Shown: positions 93-49,478 of the stretch, in pieces
Position numbering within the stretch: position 1 is the stretch's first letter
Layout of the letters: every line of letters starts with the position of its first letter
DNA from: Chloroflexota bacterium
GTDB lineage: Bacteria > Chloroflexota > Anaerolineae > Aggregatilineales > Phototrophicaceae
Direction: 5' to 3'
DNA length: 64,000 nucleotides
Assembly (NCBI GenBank): GCA_011523705.1
Contig: WTGC01000228.1
Span: 1 to 64,000, forward strand
Made by a program: the position numbers and the translations under genes
Notes under the pieces: generated by a model
Told to the model about the DNA's origin: nothing
The model's input: only the letters and a program-made list of their open reading frames with translations
Databases searched by the model: none

Positions 93-1421
93 CTAGCCGC
101 CAGCCAAGCGCTCAGCCAGCTTGTCCATCGCGGCGGACAACTCAATATGCGCTGCTTCGAGACCCTGCTCCGGGGTGACCGAGTTGGCCATAATCTGACT
201 CATGTGACGCATGAAAATGGCTTCGTATTCGGAGAAATTCTCCGGCGACGGCACCGGTTTGATGTCTTCCAGGCTGCCAAAGAAGCGATGGGCATTGGCC
301 GGGAAGCTGTTGAAGAGCTCATTCTCGGTGGCGCTGCGGCGGGCCGGCAAGGATGTGCCAACAGCGACGGCTTCCATGTCGGTTTCAATCGCGGTCAAGT
401 TTTTGATCAGTTCCAGAGCCAAGGGGACGTTCTCGGCTGTCTTGGATACTGCCCAACCGCCGGAACCGAAGACGGTCGTGCCAGCGCGATTACGCGGCCA
501 AGGCGTGATGTCAACCGTGCGCCAATCGGTGGAGACGTAGGTATCAAAGGGCCAACGTCCGGCCCCAGTCATGGCGGCTGTACCGGCCATGAAATGCTCA
601 GTCATCGTGAGGCCTTCCACCGCGGGCGCCACGCCGTGTTCATGCACCAGCGAATGCACGAATTTGACCGATTCCAGCATCTTGGGATCGTCCAGGTTAG
701 ATTGCGACCAATCCGGCGTCAACGTGGACGTGTCGTTGGTGTGCCACCAGGGCGTCAGACCGAAGTTGAAGAAAGGAATTGCGAATCCGAATTTCTTGTC
801 GGCGCCTTCACCGTGGGTCAAGACCAATGAGGTCTCGAGGAAGTCGTCCCAGGTCCAGTCCACGGCCGGAGGATCCAAGCCCGCTTCTTCAAATATGGCT
901 GTGTTGTAGTGGATGATCATATTGTTCCACTCGCGGGTGAAGTAGTAGGTCTGTCCGTCCGGTCCCTTGAGGGCGTCGTGCAATACCGGCTCGACCTCAT
1001 CGACGACGGCGGCGAGTTCCTCATCGGCGGCGATGGCGTCATCCATCGGCAGCACGAGATCTTCAAAGATAGTCTCGCGCGTGCCTTCGATGGCGATGGC
1101 GATGATGTCGGTCTTCAGCCCGCTGGCGACGCGCAGCTTCAGGTTGGTGGTGTAGTGGCCCCAGCCTTCGGGCCAAGGGATGTAAAGGTCTTCGACGACG
1201 ACATTGGGATAGCGCTCATTGAAGCGCGCGATGGCGTTGGCGATCATCTGCTGCTGCTCGGCGCCGCCGAAGTTGTAGATGACCAGATGGCCCGCGGTAT
1301 CGCCCGGAGGCGCTTGCGCGAGCGCCGTGCCGAGCGGCATGCCATAGGCGGCGGCAAAGGCGGCGGCGCTGCCCATGCCCGTGTACTTCAAAAAGTCGCG
1401 GCGTGAAAGATTCTTAGACAT
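93..1421 (-). CDS. ABC transporter sugar-binding protein, Tat-exported (CUT1 type)
   Basis: A 442-residue extracellular solute-binding protein of family 1, expected to capture a sugar or oligosaccharide outside the membrane and hand it to a CUT1 permease pair. The N-terminus carries a twin-arginine signal (SRRDFLK at about residues 6-12), an Ala-rich hydrophobic stretch and a likely cut after ALAQA near residue 36. The start is supported by a GGAG about 8 bases upstream. The mature part has typical family features: an early GWGHY-type segment, a central aromatic-rich ligand region (WNNMIIHYNT, DWTWDDF) and a late GGWAVS segment. Its permeases are not to the right; if they are linked they lie beyond the left edge. 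The substrate cannot be told from sequence. The family call is firm. Confidence 0.9.
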   Translation of the reverse strand: MSKNLSRRDFLKYTGMGSAAAFAAAYGMPLGTALAQAPPGDTAGHLVIYNFGGAEQQQMIANAIARFNERYPNVVVEDLYIPWPEGWGHYTTNLKLRVASGLKTDIIAIAIEGTRETIFEDLVLPMDDAIAADEELAAVVDEVEPVLHDALKGPDGQTYYFTREWNNMIIHYNTAIFEEAGLDPPAVDWTWDDFLETSLVLTHGEGADKKFGFAIPFFNFGLTPWWHTNDTSTLTPDWSQSNLDDPKMLESVKFVHSLVHEHGVAPAVEGLTMTEHFMAGTAAMTGAGRWPFDTYVSTDWRTVDITPWPRNRAGTTVFGSGGWAVSKTAENVPLALELIKNLTAIETDMEAVAVGTSLPARRSATENELFNSFPANAHRFFGSLEDIKPVPSPENFSEYEAIFMRHMSQIMANSVTPEQGLEAAHIELSAAMDKLAERLAGG

Positions 1422-1550
1422 ATCACTGCTCCCTCTGTGCGAATAGATTTTACTGAAATGCAGACTCTCGCAATTATATCGCGGCGATGCGATGTTGCAA
1501 GATACTCGTTTGGCGCAGACGAGCGCCTGGCAGTGTGAAAATTCTGTCGA

Positions 1551-2321
1551 TTATTGCGAGTCAAGCAGCAGATCCCGCGCGCCTAAGGGCTGCACTGGCC
1601 GCGCGTTCGCGTCAAAAATGGCGGTGAAAGCGGCGATCTGTCGCGCCGAGAGCGCCACCGGAGTATCCAGCAGCAGCCAGCGCACGATCTCGCTGCAAGG
1701 CGGCGTGGTCAGCGAACCCTGGTACGTGAAGAAGGTGCGCGCTTCCGGCAGCAGCGCTGCCAAGACAATCGGCTCGCCAGCCGCTTCCGCCTCGCCAACC
1801 TGAGCTGGCAGGTGATCAAATACGGCCGCGTAAGCCTCGTTGTCGTCTTTACCCTCGCTGAGCAGAATGCCGACCACCGCCAGCGCGCCCGAGTTGGGAT
1901 CTTGATGCACGAAGTGAATTTCCATTGGCGCCGGCATCCCGTCAATTGTGTGCTCGCTGGGGCTGTGGAAATGGAATTGCAGCAGGTCGTAAGTGATGCC
2001 GTTGTAATGAATCGCGCTGCCCGCATCGATATTGACTTGAATCGTATGGCCGTTGTTGAGGATGTTGTTGGCGCTCTCGCCATAGTGGAATTCGATATCG
2101 ACCAGGTCGAGCGCGCTGGCGTCGCGAATGTCGATCGGCGATTGTGCCGAGCCGTCGGTGCATAGCGCGTATTCCGGCGAGAGCTCTCCCCAGTATTCGG
2201 GTCCCGCATCGCCGCTGTAGCTCCAATGAATATCGGCCGCGAGCGTATTTAGCAGCAGCGCAACAAAGATGACGAGGAGAAGCGCTGTGGCGAACAGTAA
2301 TTTGCATTTCGATGACTTCAC
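1551..2321 (-). CDS. alpha-class carbonic anhydrase, secreted
   Basis: Zinc enzyme that interconverts CO2 and bicarbonate, here outside the cytoplasmic membrane. A hydrophobic signal segment (about residues 8-28) precedes the mature start near ADIHWSY. The alpha-class landmarks are all visible: QSPIDI near the N-terminus, the first two zinc histidines in FHFHSPSEH, the third in EIHFVHQ, and the late SLTTPPCSE substrate-pocket loop. Length (256 residues) is normal for bacterial alpha enzymes. The start chosen is the GTG at 2321, because an AGGAG lies 8 bases before it; an in-frame GTG nine bases further upstream would have that AGGAG overlapping it. It stands alone, transcribed away from the acetyl-CoA synthetase gene. 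Confidence 0.93.
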   Translation of the reverse strand: MKSSKCKLLFATALLLVIFVALLLNTLAADIHWSYSGDAGPEYWGELSPEYALCTDGSAQSPIDIRDASALDLVDIEFHYGESANNILNNGHTIQVNIDAGSAIHYNGITYDLLQFHFHSPSEHTIDGMPAPMEIHFVHQDPNSGALAVVGILLSEGKDDNEAYAAVFDHLPAQVGEAEAAGEPIVLAALLPEARTFFTYQGSLTTPPCSEIVRWLLLDTPVALSARQIAAFTAIFDANARPVQPLGARDLLLDSQ

Positions 2322-4509: not shown

Positions 4510-6369
4510 ATGAGTAGGATTCAAGCAAAGGAAAAGACAGTCGGCGAACTGCTTAGAAATGTCAAATACAGCATCGACTTTTATCAGCGCGAATATGAGT
4601 GGGAACGAAGGCATGTCGAGGAGTTGCTCGACGACTTTGAATCCAAGTTTATCAGCAGCTACTCGTCGGAACATGGAAGGTCTGAAGTCTACAGTTACCC
4701 ACATTACTTTCTCGGGACTATCATTACGGTTGCCGAAAACGGCCAAAGCTATATTGTCGACGGACAGCAGCGCCTGACCACACTAACCTTGCTTCTGATC
4801 TATGTTCAACATCGGCTCACGGATATAGACGATATTGGCAATTGTCGTTCACTCATTTACTCTGCCAAGAGGGGAGTGAAGTCCTTTAACATCAATGTGC
4901 CAGAACGCTTGGATTGCATGCAAGCGCTTTTTGAGGAAGGCGAATACGACGCTGCCGACCAGCTTGATTTGTCAGTGAAGAACGTGGCGACGCGTTATGC
5001 GGACATCGTGGAACTCTTTCCCGAGTCACTTCAAGGGGATACGATGCCTTATTTTTTCGATTGGTTGATCGACAATGTTGATTTGGTTGAAATCAAGGCT
5101 TATGCCGATGACGACGCATTCACTATCTTTGAGACAATGAATGATCGTGGTCTCAGTCTAGGCCATACCGACATGCTCAAGGGCTTTCTTCTAGCCAACA
5201 TCAACGATTCGAACGAAGATATTGTTCATCAGCGCAAGACACAGGCGAATAAAGTATGGAAACGGCGCATTATCGACTTAATTGGCATTGGTAAAGACGA
5301 AGACGAAAGGTTTTTTAGAGAGTGGCTGCGCGCCAAATACGCCCGCTCGATCCGCGAACGCAAAAAAGATGCTACGAACCAAGATTTTGAGAATATCAAC
5401 AAATTCCATCGCTGGGCGCGAGACAACAAAGAGCATCTAGGTTTAATGCAACCTCAAGACTTTTACGATTTCATCACGCAAAGGATGAATCGATTTGCCG
5501 GGCATTTCATTTGGCTACGTCAAGCAGCGACCACACTAGCGCCCGGTTACGAAGAGATTTACTACAACGCACATAACAACTTCACCCTGCAATACATGCT
5601 CGCCCTTGCGCCCTTGCGCCTGGAAGACGATATCGAAACAGCTCGCGAGAAAATGCGACTGGTGACAACTTTTCTCGACATTTATCTGGCCCGTCGCATG
5701 GTGAATTTCCGCGTCATTGGCTATAGCACTGTTCAGTACACCATGTTCAATTTTGCAAGAAATATTCGTGACGCACAGCTTGATCAGTTGCGCGAACTCC
5801 TTCTACGTTTTCTTGAAGAAATGCCTGATACATTCAAAGGCATCAATGGTGACCACTATGAACCCTTCTCGCTGACACACGTAAACCCTCGTCGTGTACA
5901 TTATTTGTTGGCGCGAATGACCGCTTTTGTTGAACAAGGCAGCGGCAACAATGTCTCATTTTACAACTGCGCCTACGACGGCAAGGGCAGACCGCTCGAA
6001 ATTGAACATATTTGGGCTGACATGCACGATCGCCACGTCGATGAATTTCCTCATTCATACGACTTTCAACGCCATCGTAATTACTTTGGCGGACTCGTCT
6101 TGTTACCAAAAGGCAGCAATGCAAGTTTTGGGGCAGACCCATATGAAGAAAAACTCCAGCACTACGTCGAAGAAAATCTTCTCGCCGCATCTCTCCATCC
6201 CCAAAAATATGAGAAAAACTCCAGCTTTCGGAATTTCAGAGAGAATAAAGATCTTCCATTTAAGCCACATCCACAATTCAAGAAAGCTGACCTCATGGAG
6301 CGGCAGGAACTCTACCGCCAAATCTGTGAGCAAATCTGGACTCCGGACCGGCTCTTGGTATCAAGCTAG
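4510..6369 (+). CDS. DUF262/DUF1524 protein, GmrSD-like putative nuclease
   Basis: A 619-residue protein with an N-terminal DUF262 domain, including the hallmark VDGQQRLTTL near residue 85, and a C-terminal DUF1524/HNH-like region with IEHIWA near 500 and NYFGGLVLLPKGSN shortly after. This pairing is that of the type IV restriction proteins GmrS/GmrD (fused in one chain), which use NTPs and cut modified phage DNA. In the family the HNH motif is usually EH-x-x-P; here EHIW is seen, so catalysis is not certain. The ATG at 4510 is chosen, with GGGAGAC just before it; the longer GTG start lies inside a repeat. By eye the gene is less GC-rich than its neighbours, and has no partner genes, which suggests it was acquired by transfer. 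Confidence 0.82.
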   Translation: MSRIQAKEKTVGELLRNVKYSIDFYQREYEWERRHVEELLDDFESKFISSYSSEHGRSEVYSYPHYFLGTIITVAENGQSYIVDGQQRLTTLTLLLIYVQHRLTDIDDIGNCRSLIYSAKRGVKSFNINVPERLDCMQALFEEGEYDAADQLDLSVKNVATRYADIVELFPESLQGDTMPYFFDWLIDNVDLVEIKAYADDDAFTIFETMNDRGLSLGHTDMLKGFLLANINDSNEDIVHQRKTQANKVWKRRIIDLIGIGKDEDERFFREWLRAKYARSIRERKKDATNQDFENINKFHRWARDNKEHLGLMQPQDFYDFITQRMNRFAGHFIWLRQAATTLAPGYEEIYYNAHNNFTLQYMLALAPLRLEDDIETAREKMRLVTTFLDIYLARRMVNFRVIGYSTVQYTMFNFARNIRDAQLDQLRELLLRFLEEMPDTFKGINGDHYEPFSLTHVNPRRVHYLLARMTAFVEQGSGNNVSFYNCAYDGKGRPLEIEHIWADMHDRHVDEFPHSYDFQRHRNYFGGLVLLPKGSNASFGADPYEEKLQHYVEENLLAASLHPQKYEKNSSFRNFRENKDLPFKPHPQFKKADLMERQELYRQICEQIWTPDRLLVSS

Positions 6370-6428: not shown

Positions 6429-9077
6429 TTGCGCTATAGCGGCTTGATTCTCGCCCTCGTCATCCCGATAATCGGCCTCCTGCCCATGTTCGGCGAGGGA
6501 CTAGCCAACGGCGCCGACGCCCCCTTCCACGCCCATCGCATCTTCGCCCTGGCGCGCCTGATCGAAGCGGGCGATCTCTACCCGCGCTGGGTACCTTATT
6601 TCCACCTGGGCTATGGCTATCCGGTTTTCACTTATTATGCGCCGGGCGCGACCCATATCGGCGCTTGGCTGCATCTGCTCGGCTTCGATGTCGTCCGCGC
6701 TTATACGCTAACGGTCGCATTTGCCTGGTGCATCGGCAGCCTGGGCATCTGGCTGCTGGCACGCCAATTTCTGCCGGTCGCCGCCGCGCTCCTCGCCTGC
6801 GTCCTTTGGGTCTACGCGCCGTCGCGTTTCTACGAATTCTGGTGGCAGGGCAGCCTGGCGCAAATCGTTTCCACTTCGTTCATCCCTTTCGTATTTTACG
6901 GCATCTTGTCAACGAGGCGGGTTCCCGGTCTGCGAGCCAGCTTATGGCTGGCGCTTCCGCTGGCGGCGGTCGTTTTGACCCATACGCCGACGACTTACAT
7001 CGTGCTCATATTTGCTGCGCCCTTCTGTCTGGCAGCCGCGTTCGCCTCTCGGTCGCGGCGTGAGGCGGCACAGCGTCTGCTTTTCATCGGCATCGGATTG
7101 GCGCTCGGCTTGGGCTTGTCGGCCATCTTCTGGCTGCCGGTGTCCGCTGAATTGCAGTTTGTGAGAATCGGGGGCGAACTGCGCGACACCGTCGACTTCC
7201 TCAAACACGAGTTTCTGAGTCTTGGCGAACTCCTGAGTCTTCCGCAGTTGATCGATGGGAATGACGCGACCTTGCTGATGGCGCGAACGCTGGGTCCAGT
7301 TGGCGCGGCTCTGAGCGCTCTCGGCGGCGCAGCGCTATTAGTACGCCGGCGCTTCGGCGCTGCCCTGCTTATGCTCATCGGGCTCCTCGCCGCCATTCTG
7401 TTGACATTGGAGCCGTCGTTTGATTTCTGGCTGAGCATGCCCGGCTTTCGCAACCTGCGCTTTCCTGCGCGGATTATCCGATTGGGGGCGCTCATTGTCG
7501 CTTTGCTGGGCGCGTCGAGCTTGCTGCTCGTGCCCGCCCGCTGGCGGATGCTGGCGGCATTCGCCCTGTCAGCGGCGGCGATCGCCCAAGCGCTCCCCAT
7601 CATGCACCCGCGCGACGATGATCGGGTCTGGTCCCAGCTCTCCGCCAAGGACGAGATTGAGATGGAGTACCGCGAGCGCAATTGGGGCACGACCGCCTAC
7701 AATGAATTCCGACCCATTTGGGGCGAAGCCACATCATTTGACCTGCCGCAAGACCTGGACAGTTACATCAGCGCGCCTTTGCAGATTCGCGTTTACTCTA
7801 GCGATTTCGCGCGCCGTCACTTCGATGTCAGCTACCAATATCAAGCCGACAATCAGATCTTGATTACCGCGAGGGGCCGGCCGGTTGAGCTGCGGCTTCG
7901 CCAGTTCTATGTGCCCGGCTGGCGCTTGACGGTTGACGGCGAGGCTTATCCATTTGAAGCGGATGATCGCTTCGGTTTGATCCAATTCCGCTTGCCCGAA
8001 GGCGCGCACCTGGTGCAGCTTGATTATGTAGGCACGCCGATTCAGCGTCTGGCCGCGGTGGTCAGCTTGGCGAGCGTTTGCCTCTGTCTCTTGATCATTC
8101 GATTTGCCGCGCCCTCCCGGCGCCCGCGCGCGCCCGCGCCGGCTATAACCATGAACGCGGCGCTGCTGACGGGCGGCGGCATTATTGCCTTCGCCGCTCT
8201 GAACGCATTCTACTTGCAAGACACTGTCTTTCGCATAGTCAGAATGGACGGTAAGCCAGTTTATATGCGGCAGCAGGTCGGCACGACCTTTGATGAATCC
8301 GTCACTTTGCTGGGATATACATTAGCGTCGAACTCCATCAGTGACGAAAAACCTTTGGACATCCGCTTGTATTGGGGGGTTGAAGCCGCGCCAGCGGACC
8401 GATACGAGCCAGTGGTACAGTTGGTTGATCTCAATGTCTCCAGCGCCTGGGCGGTCAGCCAACCGGGGAATTTCGAAGGTGGCTCGCTTTCTGATATTCC
8501 GCCCGGAGAATTCATGTCCGATGGCCACAAGCTGAAGCTGTCGGAGCATGCTCCCGCCTATGTCGGGCGCATATCAGTTCAGTTGATGACCTCCGATGAC
8601 AGCGGCGCCTACGCCAAATTGCCTGATGGTTCCAATCGCTATTTGCTGCCCGACATCATCAAGATCAATCGCCCCGGCGAAGCTTTCCGCGGCAAGTCTC
8701 AAGCGATTGACTTCGACGGTTTCTTGACTTTGCATTGCATCGAGACGCAGCGAATGGGGGATGCGCTCAAAGGTACGCTCCATTGGGAGGTCATCAAACA
8801 GCCGGCGCTCGACCTGCATCAGTTTGTACATGGTTTGGACGACGGGGGGGCGGTCGCTGCGCAGAGCGATGGCGAACCCTTGCCGGGCTTGTACCCAATG
8901 TCGCATTGGCGTGCAGGGCAGCATATCACCAGCGAGTTTTCGCTCGCAATCGTTGATGGCGTCGCTCAAGTCGCCTTCGGGTTATATGATCCGAACAGCG
9001 GCGCGCGCGTCCAGGTCTTGCTCGATGGAGCACAGGCCGATCGCATCCCGCTGGCGCCGGATGATTCTTCGTGCTAA
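6429..9077 (+). CDS. large polytopic membrane protein, PTPS-related/YfhO-like
   Basis: An 882-residue protein. About the first 385 residues form a series of roughly ten hydrophobic helices, with a GADAPFHAHRIFALARLI segment after the first helix and a YPVFTYYAPG loop, as in the membrane family called 6-pyruvoyl-tetrahydropterin-synthase-related. The family resembles GT-C glycosyltransferases by topology; this is known for the fold class, not shown here. Residues of about 385-535 are soluble and contain a beta-rich GWRLTVDG module as in YfhO proteins, then two more helices, then a soluble C-terminal region of about 290 residues. The start is TTG, with GAGAGAG about 7 bases upstream. A role in cell-surface glycan or lipid modification is an inference. 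Confidence 0.75.
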   Translation: MRYSGLILALVIPIIGLLPMFGEGLANGADAPFHAHRIFALARLIEAGDLYPRWVPYFHLGYGYPVFTYYAPGATHIGAWLHLLGFDVVRAYTLTVAFAWCIGSLGIWLLARQFLPVAAALLACVLWVYAPSRFYEFWWQGSLAQIVSTSFIPFVFYGILSTRRVPGLRASLWLALPLAAVVLTHTPTTYIVLIFAAPFCLAAAFASRSRREAAQRLLFIGIGLALGLGLSAIFWLPVSAELQFVRIGGELRDTVDFLKHEFLSLGELLSLPQLIDGNDATLLMARTLGPVGAALSALGGAALLVRRRFGAALLMLIGLLAAILLTLEPSFDFWLSMPGFRNLRFPARIIRLGALIVALLGASSLLLVPARWRMLAAFALSAAAIAQALPIMHPRDDDRVWSQLSAKDEIEMEYRERNWGTTAYNEFRPIWGEATSFDLPQDLDSYISAPLQIRVYSSDFARRHFDVSYQYQADNQILITARGRPVELRLRQFYVPGWRLTVDGEAYPFEADDRFGLIQFRLPEGAHLVQLDYVGTPIQRLAAVVSLASVCLCLLIIRFAAPSRRPRAPAPAITMNAALLTGGGIIAFAALNAFYLQDTVFRIVRMDGKPVYMRQQVGTTFDESVTLLGYTLASNSISDEKPLDIRLYWGVEAAPADRYEPVVQLVDLNVSSAWAVSQPGNFEGGSLSDIPPGEFMSDGHKLKLSEHAPAYVGRISVQLMTSDDSGAYAKLPDGSNRYLLPDIIKINRPGEAFRGKSQAIDFDGFLTLHCIETQRMGDALKGTLHWEVIKQPALDLHQFVHGLDDGGAVAAQSDGEPLPGLYPMSHWRAGQHITSEFSLAIVDGVAQVAFGLYDPNSGARVQVLLDGAQADRIPLAPDDSSC

Positions 9078-33594: not shown

Positions 33595-33660
33595 GGCGGT
33601 CAGTGTCTACGCGACCTGCGCGTTCCTCTGTGCCCTCTGTGTCCTCTGTGGTGAGAAAAA
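33595..33660. repeat. core repeat plus CCTCTGTG motif
   Basis: TCAGTGTCTACGCGACC at 33600-33616 is identical to 40041-40057. It is followed at 33621-33660 by a run of CCTCTGTG-type units ending in CTCTGTGGTGAGAAA, related to the CTCGGTG...CTCGGTGGT motif found elsewhere in this window. Confidence 0.65.
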
Positions 33661-45880: not shown

Positions 45881-47254
45881 ATGGATTCCAGCGCCACTCT
45901 GGATGTGGCGATCAATCGGCGCTACGGCCGCTTGCTCAGTTGCAGCGCTCCCTGCGCTGGCATCAGTTTCGCCGGATTTCTGGCGGCGGCTGCGGGCGGC
46001 GCGCGCTTCTACTGGGAAGAGCCGAATGGCGCTTTCGCCTTCGCTGGCGCCGGTACGGCTGTCGAATTGATGGCATGGGGACCCGAGCGTTTCAAACGGA
46101 TCGCCGTGGACGCGCGAGAGCTATTCGAGGGCGCGCGCCATGAAGGCGACGACAATCCACTTAGCGGTCCCCGCCTGCTCGGCGGCTTTGCTTTCCGCAA
46201 CGATTTCACGCCCGATAACACTTGGTCGATATACAGTCCCGCCTTCTTCGTGCTCCCACATTATCAGCTGGTGAGGGACCGGGACATGATGTGGCTGACG
46301 ATCAATGCGCAGATTCCGCCGGAGGAATCGCCAGAGTCGCTGATACCAGATCTAACAGCCGCGCTCGAACAAAAGATCGCGCAGCTGAAGGCGGCGCAAG
46401 CATCCATGGACGCGGATGAGCAGAGCGCGCTCATAGGCGTCGACTATCCAATGCGTTATCCGACTTGGGAAAGCATCATTAGCGACGCGACCGAGCGCAT
46501 TCGCGCTGGCGCCCTGCGAAAAGTGGTCTTGGCGCGCGCCGCCGAATTGCGTTTCGAGTCGCCGGTAAAACTGCTGCCGATCTTGTGTCACTTGGCGGCG
46601 CAGTATGCCGACTGCTATCGCTTCCTCTTCGAGCCGCGTCCGCGTTACGCCTTTTATGGCGCCTCGCCCGAGCTGCTTGCCTCGACGCGTGGTCGCGCGC
46701 TCGAGACAATGGCACTGGCCGGCAGCGCCGCGCGCGGCGATAACGATGAGGCCGATCGGCGCCTGGGCGATATGCTGCTCGGCAATGCCAAGGAGCGTAC
46801 TGAGCATGAGATCGTGGTCGAAAAAATGCGCGACCGCCTCGCGCCGATGACAGAATCGCTGGAAATCAGCCCAACGGCGCTCTTGAAATTGAGCAATATA
46901 CAGCATATCAACACACCGATCCGCGGGACGCTCAAGCGGAAGAACGGCATACTGCCGCCGGTTGAGGCATTGCATCCGACGCCCGCTTTGGGCGGCGATC
47001 CGCGGCCCGATGCCTTGCGACTGATCCGTGAGCTGGAGCCGATTCCGCGCGGCTGGTATGGGGCGCCGGTCGGCTGGATTGATTCGAGTCTCGATGGACA
47101 GTTCGCTGTCGCCATTCGTTCCGCCGTTGCCCAGGAGTCGCGCGCCTGGATTTACGCCGGCGCCGGCATTGTGGCAGAGAGCACGCCTGATCTTGAGTGG
47201 GCGGAGACCGAACTCAAATTCCGCCCCATGCTTGATGCGCATGGAGTGATTTGA
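45881..47254 (+). CDS. menF: isochorismate synthase
   Basis: Converts chorismate to isochorismate, the entry step of classical menaquinone synthesis. The 457-residue protein has the C-terminal chorismate-binding fold, with KVVLARAAELRF near 210, YAFYGASPELLASTRG near 255, and the ALAGSAARGDNDEADRRLGDMLL segment and EHEIVVEKM near 310 with metal-binding glutamates. Its place with menD, menB, menE and menH rules out anthranilate or salicylate synthase. Its stop codon TGA overlaps the outer end of the GxxExxY cassette. Confidence 0.93.
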   Translation: MDSSATLDVAINRRYGRLLSCSAPCAGISFAGFLAAAAGGARFYWEEPNGAFAFAGAGTAVELMAWGPERFKRIAVDARELFEGARHEGDDNPLSGPRLLGGFAFRNDFTPDNTWSIYSPAFFVLPHYQLVRDRDMMWLTINAQIPPEESPESLIPDLTAALEQKIAQLKAAQASMDADEQSALIGVDYPMRYPTWESIISDATERIRAGALRKVVLARAAELRFESPVKLLPILCHLAAQYADCYRFLFEPRPRYAFYGASPELLASTRGRALETMALAGSAARGDNDEADRRLGDMLLGNAKERTEHEIVVEKMRDRLAPMTESLEISPTALLKLSNIQHINTPIRGTLKRKNGILPPVEALHPTPALGGDPRPDALRLIRELEPIPRGWYGAPVGWIDSSLDGQFAVAIRSAVAQESRAWIYAGAGIVAESTPDLEWAETELKFRPMLDAHGVI

Positions 47255-47727
47255 CCACCGAGTACACCGAGGAAAGCTCTGCTGATCGGATTGAAAAAGA
47301 GGGATTGCATGTATAGGCACGACGATCTGACACATGAAATAATCGGCGCGGCGATGGACGTTCATAGTGAGATGGGAGCAGGGCTAATCGAGCAAATCTA
47401 CGAAAACGCGATGTGTGTCGAACTTACTAAGCGCGGAATACGATATCAGAAACAGGTGCGTGTGCCTGTGCAATACAAGGGCGTAGCGGTCGGCGACTTG
47501 TACGCTGATCTCGTAGTCGAAGGCCGGGTGATTGTGGAGTTAAAATCGGTCCGCGAATTGGCTCCTATCCATCAAGCGCAACTGACTACTTATCTGAAAC
47601 TGTCAGGAATCAAGACTGGCCTGCTCATCAACTTCAACGTTGTATCTCTGAAAAAGGGCGAACGACGCTTCAGCGTATAACAGATTCTCGACGTCCTCGG
47701 TGACCTCGGTGTACTCGGTGGTGAAAT
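47249..47727. mobile_element. GxxExxY cassette with exact terminal inverted repeats
   Basis: The 19 bases ACCACCGAGTACACCGAGG at 47254-47272 and their exact reverse complement at 47704-47722 bound a 469-base unit. With one mismatch the match extends outward by five more bases (ATTTG on the left, SAAAT on the right). The only gene inside is a GxxExxY protein. The unit sits exactly in the gap between menF and menD. No transposase is present, so it would be a non-autonomous or unusual element. Related solitary motifs lie at 33621-33660 and 38540-38562. Confidence 0.65.
47309..47680 (+). CDS. GxxExxY-family protein (PD-(D/E)XK-like)
   Basis: A 123-residue protein with the name-giving motif at GAGLIEQIYENAM (about residues 24-36), and later DLVVEGRVIVELKSV, with the D...E-x-K pattern of the PD-(D/E)XK nuclease fold. 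The function of this widespread family is not known. The ATG at 47309 is chosen because of GAGGG 5 bases upstream. It is enclosed by exact inverted repeats and interrupts the men gene order, so it is likely to be mobile cargo and not part of menaquinone synthesis. Confidence 0.88.
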   Translation: MYRHDDLTHEIIGAAMDVHSEMGAGLIEQIYENAMCVELTKRGIRYQKQVRVPVQYKGVAVGDLYADLVVEGRVIVELKSVRELAPIHQAQLTTYLKLSGIKTGLLINFNVVSLKKGERRFSV

Positions 47728-47738
47728 ACAAGACTACC

Positions 47739-49478
47739 ATGCCCAATCCAAACACACTTTACGCCAATACATTCGTTGACGCCCTGATTGCGTGCGGCTT
47801 GAGACGCGTTTGCCTGGCGCCTGGCTCGCGGCATACGCCACTCGTGCTCGCGCTGGCGCGGCATCGTCAGGATATCGAGATTTACTCCCATCTGGACGAA
47901 CGCAGCGCCGCTTTTTTCGCCTTGGGGCTGGCGATTGGTTCATGCGAGCCGGCCGCAGTGGTCTGCACCTCCGGCTCGGCGGCGGCCAACTTCTTCCCGG
48001 CGATTGTGGAGGCGCATCAATCGCGCGTCCCCCTCATCGTGCTAACGGCTGACCGCCCCCCTGAATTGCGAGCCAGCGGCGCCAACCAGACCATCGACCA
48101 AATCAAGCTCTACGGCGATTACGCTGACTGGTTCTATGATGCGCCGCTGCCGGAAGCGGACCCGCCCCCGGTTGCGTTGCGGAATTTAAGGTCGCTGGCG
48201 GCGCGCGCTTATGATATCGCGGCATCGCAGCTTGGCGTCGTACATATCAACTTTCCCTTCCGCAAGCCGTTTGAACCGACTTCCGATGACATGTTGGAAA
48301 TCGACCGCAGCGCGCCCGCCCGGTTCAGCGCGCTATCGTCTGGCGGAAGCGCTGAATTGGCGGCGCTGCTAACTGATGACCTGCTGAGCCGCAGAGGTTT
48401 GATCTATTGCGGTCACGGCACTTGCCGCAGCGATGCCGAATGGAGAGCGCTGACGCCGTGGATATCGCGCCTGTCGCTTTCGACCGGCTATCCCGTCTTG
48501 GCCGAATCCACCGCTAACCTGCTTGGATTCGGATACCCGTTTAACAGTGCCACCCTTGGTTTCATGGCAGCACCCGTTGTCGACTTCTCACAAGCCGAGG
48601 TAGTCATCCGCTTTGGCGCGCCGCCGCTGAGCAAGCCGATGCAAGACTTCCTTGCGGATCGTGAGTTGGCATACCATATCTACTGCAGCCGCACAGGCGA
48701 ATGGGCGGACGATACGCATGGTATCACACACCATTTGACCATTGATCCCAACTCCGTTTCGCAGTTTGATTGGAACGACATTCCACCGGTGCAATTCCAG
48801 GACTGGCGCAGCCACATGTGGAAGATATGGCAAATCTCCCGCAAGGCAATGGCTGAGGAAATCGCAAAGGGCGACTACTTCGATGGCGCCGTACTATTTG
48901 ATGCAATCGATCTCATGCCACTGGACAGCGCAATATTCGCTGGCAACAGTTTACCGGTGCGGCATCTGGAGCAGTTTGGCTTGCCGGGCGCGAAGCCCCC
49001 ATTCGCCTATGCCAACCGAGGCGCCTCGGGCATCGACGGCAATGTCTCGACCGCATTGGGCATCGGCGCGGCGCGCAAAGGCAAACCGCTGGTGGCCGTC
49101 CTGGGCGATATCACCCTCTATCACGATATGAATGGCTTGCTGGCGATCAAGCGCTGCGGCGTCCCGCTGACGATTGTGCTGCTCAACAACGAGGGCGGGG
49201 GCATCTTCCACCGCCTGCCGATACGGGAGTTTGAACCGGCGTTCAGCGATTATTTCTTCGCTGCGCATGGACTGGACTTCGCCCAGGTTGCCGCGCTCTA
49301 CGATCTGAATTACATTCGCGCGGATGATCGCGCTTCGTTTCGGCGTGCCTTCAGCGAGTCGGTCGGCGGAACAACCTCGACCTTGATTGAAGTGCGCACC
49401 GATGCCGCCGCTGATCTCAAGCGCCGGAACGATATCATGGCGGCCGTGCATGAGAATCTGAAATCGCTACTGTCGTAG
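47739..49478 (+). CDS. menD: SEPHCHC synthase
   Basis: Thiamine-diphosphate enzyme that joins isochorismate and 2-oxoglutarate, 579 residues. The catalytic glutamate region [12 protein letters not shown] is near residue 47, and the ThDP/Mg motif [10 protein letters not shown]...[13 protein letters not shown] near 450-490 (the [11 protein letters not shown] block is diagnostic for MenD). The ATG at 47739 lies 17 bases beyond the end of the GxxExxY cassette; an in-frame GTG within the cassette end is less likely. Its TAG stop at 49476-49478 is formed by the conserved GTAG that precedes the palindromic repeat. Confidence 0.94.

Follow-up and report, generated by a model that had tools for sequence, protein, structure and literature searches.

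Between menF and menD of a Chloroflexota bacterium lies a 479-bp unit consisting of a single gene, of the GxxExxY family, between two inverted tandem arrays. This locus raises the question of why a lone gene should carry such ends, and whether the unit is a mobile element acting through its own protein or a passenger of another enzyme. The unit lies in the window, the 64,000-nt stretch of contig WTGC01000228.1 that was analysed. A repeat search of the window found an inverted pair of 24 nt at 47249-47272 and 47704-47727, complementary at 23/24 positions. The inner 19 nt (47254-47272 and 47704-47722) were exact, bearing out the earlier note, which had described exact 19-bp inverted ends with one mismatch in the outer five bases. 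The right arm contained an extra, third 9-bp unit at 47694-47703, so the ends proved to be tandem arrays (Table 1). They are built of 9-bp ACCGAGTAC units with the head TTT-ACC pointing outward, and the left head, ATTTGACC, supplies the stop codon TGA of menF (47252-47254). In relatives G015 and G028 the left array had one unit more than in the window, and the arrays of G000, G015, and G028 varied in steps of whole 9-bp units. GxxExxY was the only gene between the ends at menF-menD, and a transposase gene was absent there.

Table 1. Positions of the element, its neighbours, and MITEs of other genomes that carry arrays just inside their ends.
Feature	Position	Strand	Description and basis
Left terminal array	47249..47272	+	Head ATTTGACC and two 9-bp units (ACCGAGTAC ACCGAGG); repeat search, sequence
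Right terminal array, inverted	47694..47727	-	Head ATTTCACC and units ACCGAGTAC ACCGAGGTC ACCGAGG; repeat search, sequence
GxxExxY gene (PF13366 / TIGR04256)	47309..47680	+	123 aa; profile matches, alignment, predicted structure
menF (isochorismate synthase), upstream neighbour	45881..47254	+	Stop codon within the left array head
menD, downstream neighbour	47739..49478	+	Start 11 nt past the right array
MITE in G007	L235 ~1142-1593		
MITEs in G021	L229 ~5553-5708, 6595-6762		
MITE in G016	L221		

The GxxExxY open reading frame runs from ATG at 47309 to the stop codon at 47678-47680, with TTG at 47291 as the longest start. The protein matched PF13366, its sole Pfam match (E=1.9e-43; 148 bits against a curated cut-off of 22), and TIGR04256, the GxxExxY family (E=1.6e-43; 147.7 bits against 35), which confirmed that the ends enclose a lone GxxExxY gene. 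In 25 aligned sequences, G25, E28, and Y31 of the GxxExxY motif were invariant, as were D67, E77, K79, and Q91 of the PD-(D/E)XK catalytic core. A search of solved structures by sequence gave no match to the protein. An AlphaFold2 model was obtained with a pLDDT of 94.5, and the best fold match of this predicted structure was Cas4 SSO0001 (Z 9.8), followed by many PD-(D/E)XK enzymes including Hjc. Judged from the model, the GxxExxY protein is a compact PD-(D/E)XK nuclease with a restriction-endonuclease-like fold and an intact core. Among relatives, dN/dS was 0.04-0.18, which points to strong purifying selection on the gene.

PADLOC defence models gave weak matches only, to Cas4 (E=0.0023) and NsnC (E=0.01). 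A single-pattern scan of IMG/VR confirmed no relative of the gene, phage records contained it in one virus (in two records), and plasmids in 8/72,556. This near absence from viral and plasmid collections makes GxxExxY look chromosomal, and carriage as phage or plasmid cargo was rejected on this ground.

The array sequence was found far beyond the element. With at most two mismatches, ACCGAGTACACCGAGG occurred at 64 places in the source genome, compared with 4 for the reversed control, alongside just one GxxExxY gene; within the window, there were 7 matches at up to three mismatches against 0.22 expected. In 20 regions read in the source genome, the copies began with a sharp head, TTT[T/C]ACC, had outer flanks unrelated between copies, and showed an array tail that decayed in 9-bp phase. 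Most copies were without a nearby partner and were located near gene ends. Terminal inverted repeats, as the earlier note had called them, were thus present, but the description was undersized, because each end is a tandem array whose repeat is dispersed through the genome, which had not been foreseen. A terminal repeat unique to the element was ruled out by the same dispersal, and a known RNA family by an Rfam search, which gave no match.

Weaker array matches in the window, with 2-3 mismatches, lay at 33634, 38539, 41644, and 42733. Around 782-880 of locus L080 (G000:C240), three arrays with three unit types were stacked about 33 nt apart in one orientation. At about 955 and 1113 of L074 (G000:C211), the 3' end of the upstream gene was duplicated along with the array head after the stop codon.

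To survey how widely the inverted ends recur, 97 distinct GxxExxY genes were gathered, partly from 61 related genomes and partly from species representatives of other phyla. There was enough flank at 95 of them, and a locus passed when inverted repeats within 220 nt scored above a shuffle threshold. The ends did recur: inverted flanking repeats were found at 85/95 genes, many of which occupy orthologous sites and therefore represent fewer independent cases. Direct-orientation repeats exceeded the threshold at 9/95 genes, the inverted-repeat threshold was passed by 17% of pairs when left and right flanks were taken from different loci, and among ordinary ORFs with 150 aa or more in the same genus, 4/466 had inverted repeats. 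A chance repeat was ruled out by this comparison with ordinary ORFs together with the genome-wide and window counts against controls. Among the loci of the species-representative scan (L044-L065), 19/22 passed, the direct-orientation score being higher in a few.

Outside the genus, arrayed GxxExxY genes were found in Geomonas, Akkermansiaceae, Bacteroidota, Nitrospirae, and other taxa. The arrays followed a common grammar, in which an outward head is followed by three or four purine-rich tandem units at 8-10 bp spacing. Lineage-specific units were ACCGAGTAC, CACAAAGA, CACAGAGG, and CGCGAATAA, together with AGGGATAAA, CGCCAAGAG, CACGGAGTT, and CACGGATTAA, which are among those found beyond the genus. 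Unit sequence and spacing varied by protein lineage and agreed on both sides of the gene, and even irregularities of spacing were common to the left and right side of a locus.

At L048 (Desulfoferrobacter suflitae), at about 5001-5315, GxxExxY was flanked not only by the inverted repeat but also by a strong direct repeat with an alignment score of 151. L151 (G023) and L153 (G015) are sites that each hold a pair of GxxExxY cassettes, separated by about 1.6 kb; their array spacing, GAAACGAGGATA, is distinctive.

The junction between menF and menD was polymorphic for insertion. Outside the genus the two genes abut, with gaps of -4, 11, and 14, and inside it G029 had a gap of 10 nt. An ACCGAG cassette filled the junction in G000, G028, G015, G018, G002, G008, G016, G020, G022, and G032, a CACAAAG cassette in G001, G007, G009, G011, G019, G021, G024, and G033, and a CACAGAG cassette in G026 and G030. 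The remaining states in the genus were decayed remnants or array-ended inserts without the gene. Replacement and nesting were also observed: in G018, G002, G008, G016, G020, and G032 a leftover CACAAAG left end had the ACCGAG cassette just inside it, and G030 had two nested shells. Variation of this kind was also seen where an SDR gene neighbours an acetamidase-like gene (both named from sequence, not by family search): this second site was filled in G008, G007, G021, G018, G017, and G002, empty in G012, occupied by a single array in G016, and also found in a gene-less state. Cassette sites were often inherited vertically, and many GxxExxY pseudogenes were present among the relatives. The earlier note had proposed a minimal mobile element and had called for a search of relatives for an empty junction. 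Empty, decayed, and differently filled junctions were found; as the ends recur at most GxxExxY genes and the gene is not always present at menF-menD, the proposal is supported. At L175 (G033:C21:40554-45517), a GxxExxY cassette stood on either side of menD.

Among G000, G028, and G015, dS of GxxExxY was 0.31-0.38, compared with 0.51-1.21 for the flanking menF and menD, and the raised similarity around the gene ran about 370 bp into menD. The low dS suggests exchange between lineages but, given this continuation into menD, not movement of the element alone, and ordinary recombination could explain the raised similarity. A similar tract would also be given by co-conversion, if GxxExxY cut the cassette-less allele and host recombination copied the cassette in, the arrays being substrates or by-products of recombination. 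Such homing would fit the low dS, the exchange of cassette types at menF-menD, and the use of two intergenic sites again and again. I-Ssp6803I is a PD-(D/E)XK homing endonuclease, and the present system resembles such enzymes and free-standing homing endonucleases in being a lone nuclease gene of the same fold superfamily that spreads into a defined site. It differs from them in that there is no intron, the ends are inverted tandem arrays, and many dispersed copies are gene-less. Homing alone leaves unexplained the inverted tandem arrays as ends, the hundreds of dispersed arrays, and the outward-facing gene-less pairs at non-homologous sites, and we regard it as improbable.

The protein and the repeat were found to co-vary. 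For the menF-menD cassettes, the amino acid distance was 0.31 within a repeat type and 0.45 between types (0/5000 permutations as large). When each protein was compared with its nearest relative at another genomic site, the repeat type agreed in 53/85 cases, compared with 22.6 after shuffling (maximum 40, 2000 shuffles), and for menF-menD proteins with ACCGAG arrays this relative was always of the ACCGAG type. This co-variation, seen at the level of sequence, is the main evidence tying the GxxExxY protein to the array. Together with the intact nuclease core and purifying selection, it indirectly favours the earlier suggestion that the protein acts on its own ends.

Array copy number roughly followed the GxxExxY gene. 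Within the genus, ACCACCGAGNNCACCGAG at no more than one mismatch reached 271 copies per genome. ACCGAG arrays numbered 6 and 1 in G013 and G014, genus members without a GxxExxY match, 0 in G033, whose GxxExxY genes are solely of the CACAAAG type, and 0 in three outgroups of the same family; other families of the order had 0-5 scattered matches. CACAAAG arrays were distributed in a like manner. G027 had 59 array matches, and the GxxExxY genes found there were all broken. Array counts did not scale with gene number, since the 271 arrays of G022 accompany one GxxExxY gene.

In G007, G021, and G016, GxxExxY-type arrays lay just inside the ends of MITEs that have other ends (GGGCAATCGCATCA, TAGTGTATCCATTTCGGTTGAAA) and ~10-bp target duplications. 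These duplications belong to the outer MITEs and were rejected as target duplications of the element itself. As some arrays travel inside other MITEs, part of array dispersal is hitch-hiking. A 191-bp MITE family of G018 was likewise rejected as proof of array-driven transposition, because its outer inverted sequences resemble the ends of another MITE; its dispersal may be a case of hitch-hiking.

Such nesting would be expected if an unrelated transposase encoded elsewhere recognised the arrays and GxxExxY were a cargo or parasite linked to them. Gene-less array pairs are common, which also fits a cargo role, and known PD-(D/E)XK enzymes of transposition act together with a partner transposase, as TnsA does. 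Against a cargo role, GxxExxY is the only protein-coding content that recurs between such ends, inspection of array pairs in G000 revealed no transposase gene within them, and the repeat type tracks the GxxExxY subfamily across sites, which a cargo need not do. We consider this account unlikely. The elements are like insertion sequences and MITEs in their terminal inverted repeats, in gene-less derivatives with shared ends, and in their presence or absence between species, but unlike them in lacking a transposase gene between the ends and a detectable target duplication and in having tandem arrays as ends.

Geomonas provided a second lineage. In Geomonas paludis, a GxxExxY cassette separates a capD-like gene from a downstream gene, and its cognate motif matched 168 times, the control 4 times. 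Of the 42 plus-strand heads listed, 37 belonged to pairs that face outward at a distance of 30-600 bp, and 1 to the reverse arrangement. These pairs are REPIN-like, of the form TTA|ACAGGGATAAAAGGGATAAAGGGGATA ... TATCCCTTTTATCCCCTTTATCCCTGT|T, in which the spacer measures between about 5 nt and more than 200 nt, and some of them hold a nested element family of CGCAAAG type. At two sites compared in up to 19 species, pairs were present or absent between species, the absent state being a short intergenic gap. The interval at the cassette site was 493-547 nt in 6/19 Geomonas genomes, consistent with the gene being there. The duplication of target sites that the earlier note had asked about was not detected: for 24 Geomonas elements whose exact insertion point is not fixed, own flanks scored 2.2 and swapped flanks 2.3.

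Two short Geomonas pairs were predicted to fold into very stable hairpins (z -6.7). Strong hairpins of paired arrays could mean that nuclease and arrays form a resident system of DNA repair, regulation, or RNA-level function, for example with stem-forming 3' ends. Strong purifying selection, long vertical persistence at some sites, and the location of arrays near gene ends would agree with such a host function. It is contradicted by the many pseudogenes, empty sites, and replacements, by the patchy distribution, by the lack of a stable hairpin when a single array was folded, and by the absence of an Rfam match, and we hold it to be very unlikely.

We favour, with a probability of roughly 0.6, a selfish system resembling REP/RAYT in which a PD-(D/E)XK nuclease replaces the HUH protein, with a minimal, probably selfish cassette whose arrays are the cognate recognition sequence. 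The full cassette would be the autonomous form, and solo arrays, short inverted pairs, and gene-less element ends would be non-autonomous members or scars. Most probably, the nuclease recognises its cognate array and binds there, each 8-10 bp unit perhaps taking one protomer; it would then cleave either array-bearing elements or the target DNA. Through these breaks, arrays and cassettes would be copied or transferred to intergenic positions, in many cases at stop codons or in the interiors of other small inverted-repeat elements, and insertion would occur without detectable target duplication. GxxExxY itself would drive this movement, presumably with no other enzyme. Points that weigh against this reading are the lack of a target duplication signal, the hitch-hiking of some arrays in other MITEs, the frequent vertical inheritance of sites, the 59 array matches of G027 beside broken genes, and array counts that do not rise with gene number.

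RAYT is described as a HUH tyrosine enzyme and REPs as palindromes of 20-40 nt with a GTAG or CGTC tag (PMC3733652), and TnpA_REP and REP are reported to co-evolve (PMC8266576). In a REPtron, the gene has on either side a copy of an extragenic repeat, the two copies being inverted relative to each other; the repeat is dispersed in the genome, and REPIN-like pairs occur (PMC8266576, PMC3733652, PMC3116915). The GxxExxY system is similar in having a lone small gene, inverted copies of a genome-dispersed repeat, and both solos and inverted pairs; the co-variation of protein and repeat types is a further likeness (PMC8266576). Unlike RAYT, the protein is not of the HUH single-tyrosine (Y1) kind but belongs to PF13366 with a PD-(D/E)XK fold, and unlike REP, the repeat is not a GTAG- or CGTC-tagged palindrome but has the head TTT[T/C/G]ACC and, after it, tandem 8-10 bp units, and the single array tested did not fold by itself. 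With neither a HUH enzyme nor a tagged palindrome, the GxxExxY system is not a REPtron member. Geobacter bemidjiensis has multicopy intergenic sequences made up of palindromes or short direct repeats, which occur several times in one intergenic region and were judged non-random (PMC2996986). They are alike as intergenic families, but their description links them to no nuclease gene; this comparison is by description only. Within the literature covered, which was partial, nothing relevant was found on the repeat sequences, GxxExxY, or a link between repeat and nuclease. As these REPtron features are lacking and no gene-array link was found reported in that partial coverage, we call the system of GxxExxY gene and arrays, whose mechanism we infer, a categorically new kind.

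Its occurrence across many phyla suggests that the arrangement represents a type of minimal mobile element not recognised before. If our reading is true, it would give a function to the widespread orphan family GxxExxY and would account for at least some of the dispersed CACAGAG-, CACAAAG-, ACCGAG-, and AGGGATA-type repeats of environmental bacterial genomes. The natural matched pairs of nuclease and array would offer a readable DNA recognition code, and the REP-RAYT life style would have evolved independently with a different enzyme fold. More tentatively, a lone 120-residue PD-(D/E)XK nuclease without a transposase partner might mobilise itself and a large family of non-autonomous repeats through recognition of tandem 8-10 bp units, with insertion at stop codons and inside hairpin-like elements and with its own array code in each protein lineage, and, with the period-7 arrays of PF05635 genes as a parallel, might belong to a general class of single-gene array-ended elements.

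PF05635 is an unrelated four-helix bundle family (23S rRNA IVP-like). At about 5/10 loci, it occurred as a lone small gene with inverted short-period arrays. The period was about 7 (GGGAGTG, AGAGGCC, GCGGATT), as seen at L301, L302, L304, L308, and L309 in G051, G046, G038, and G050.
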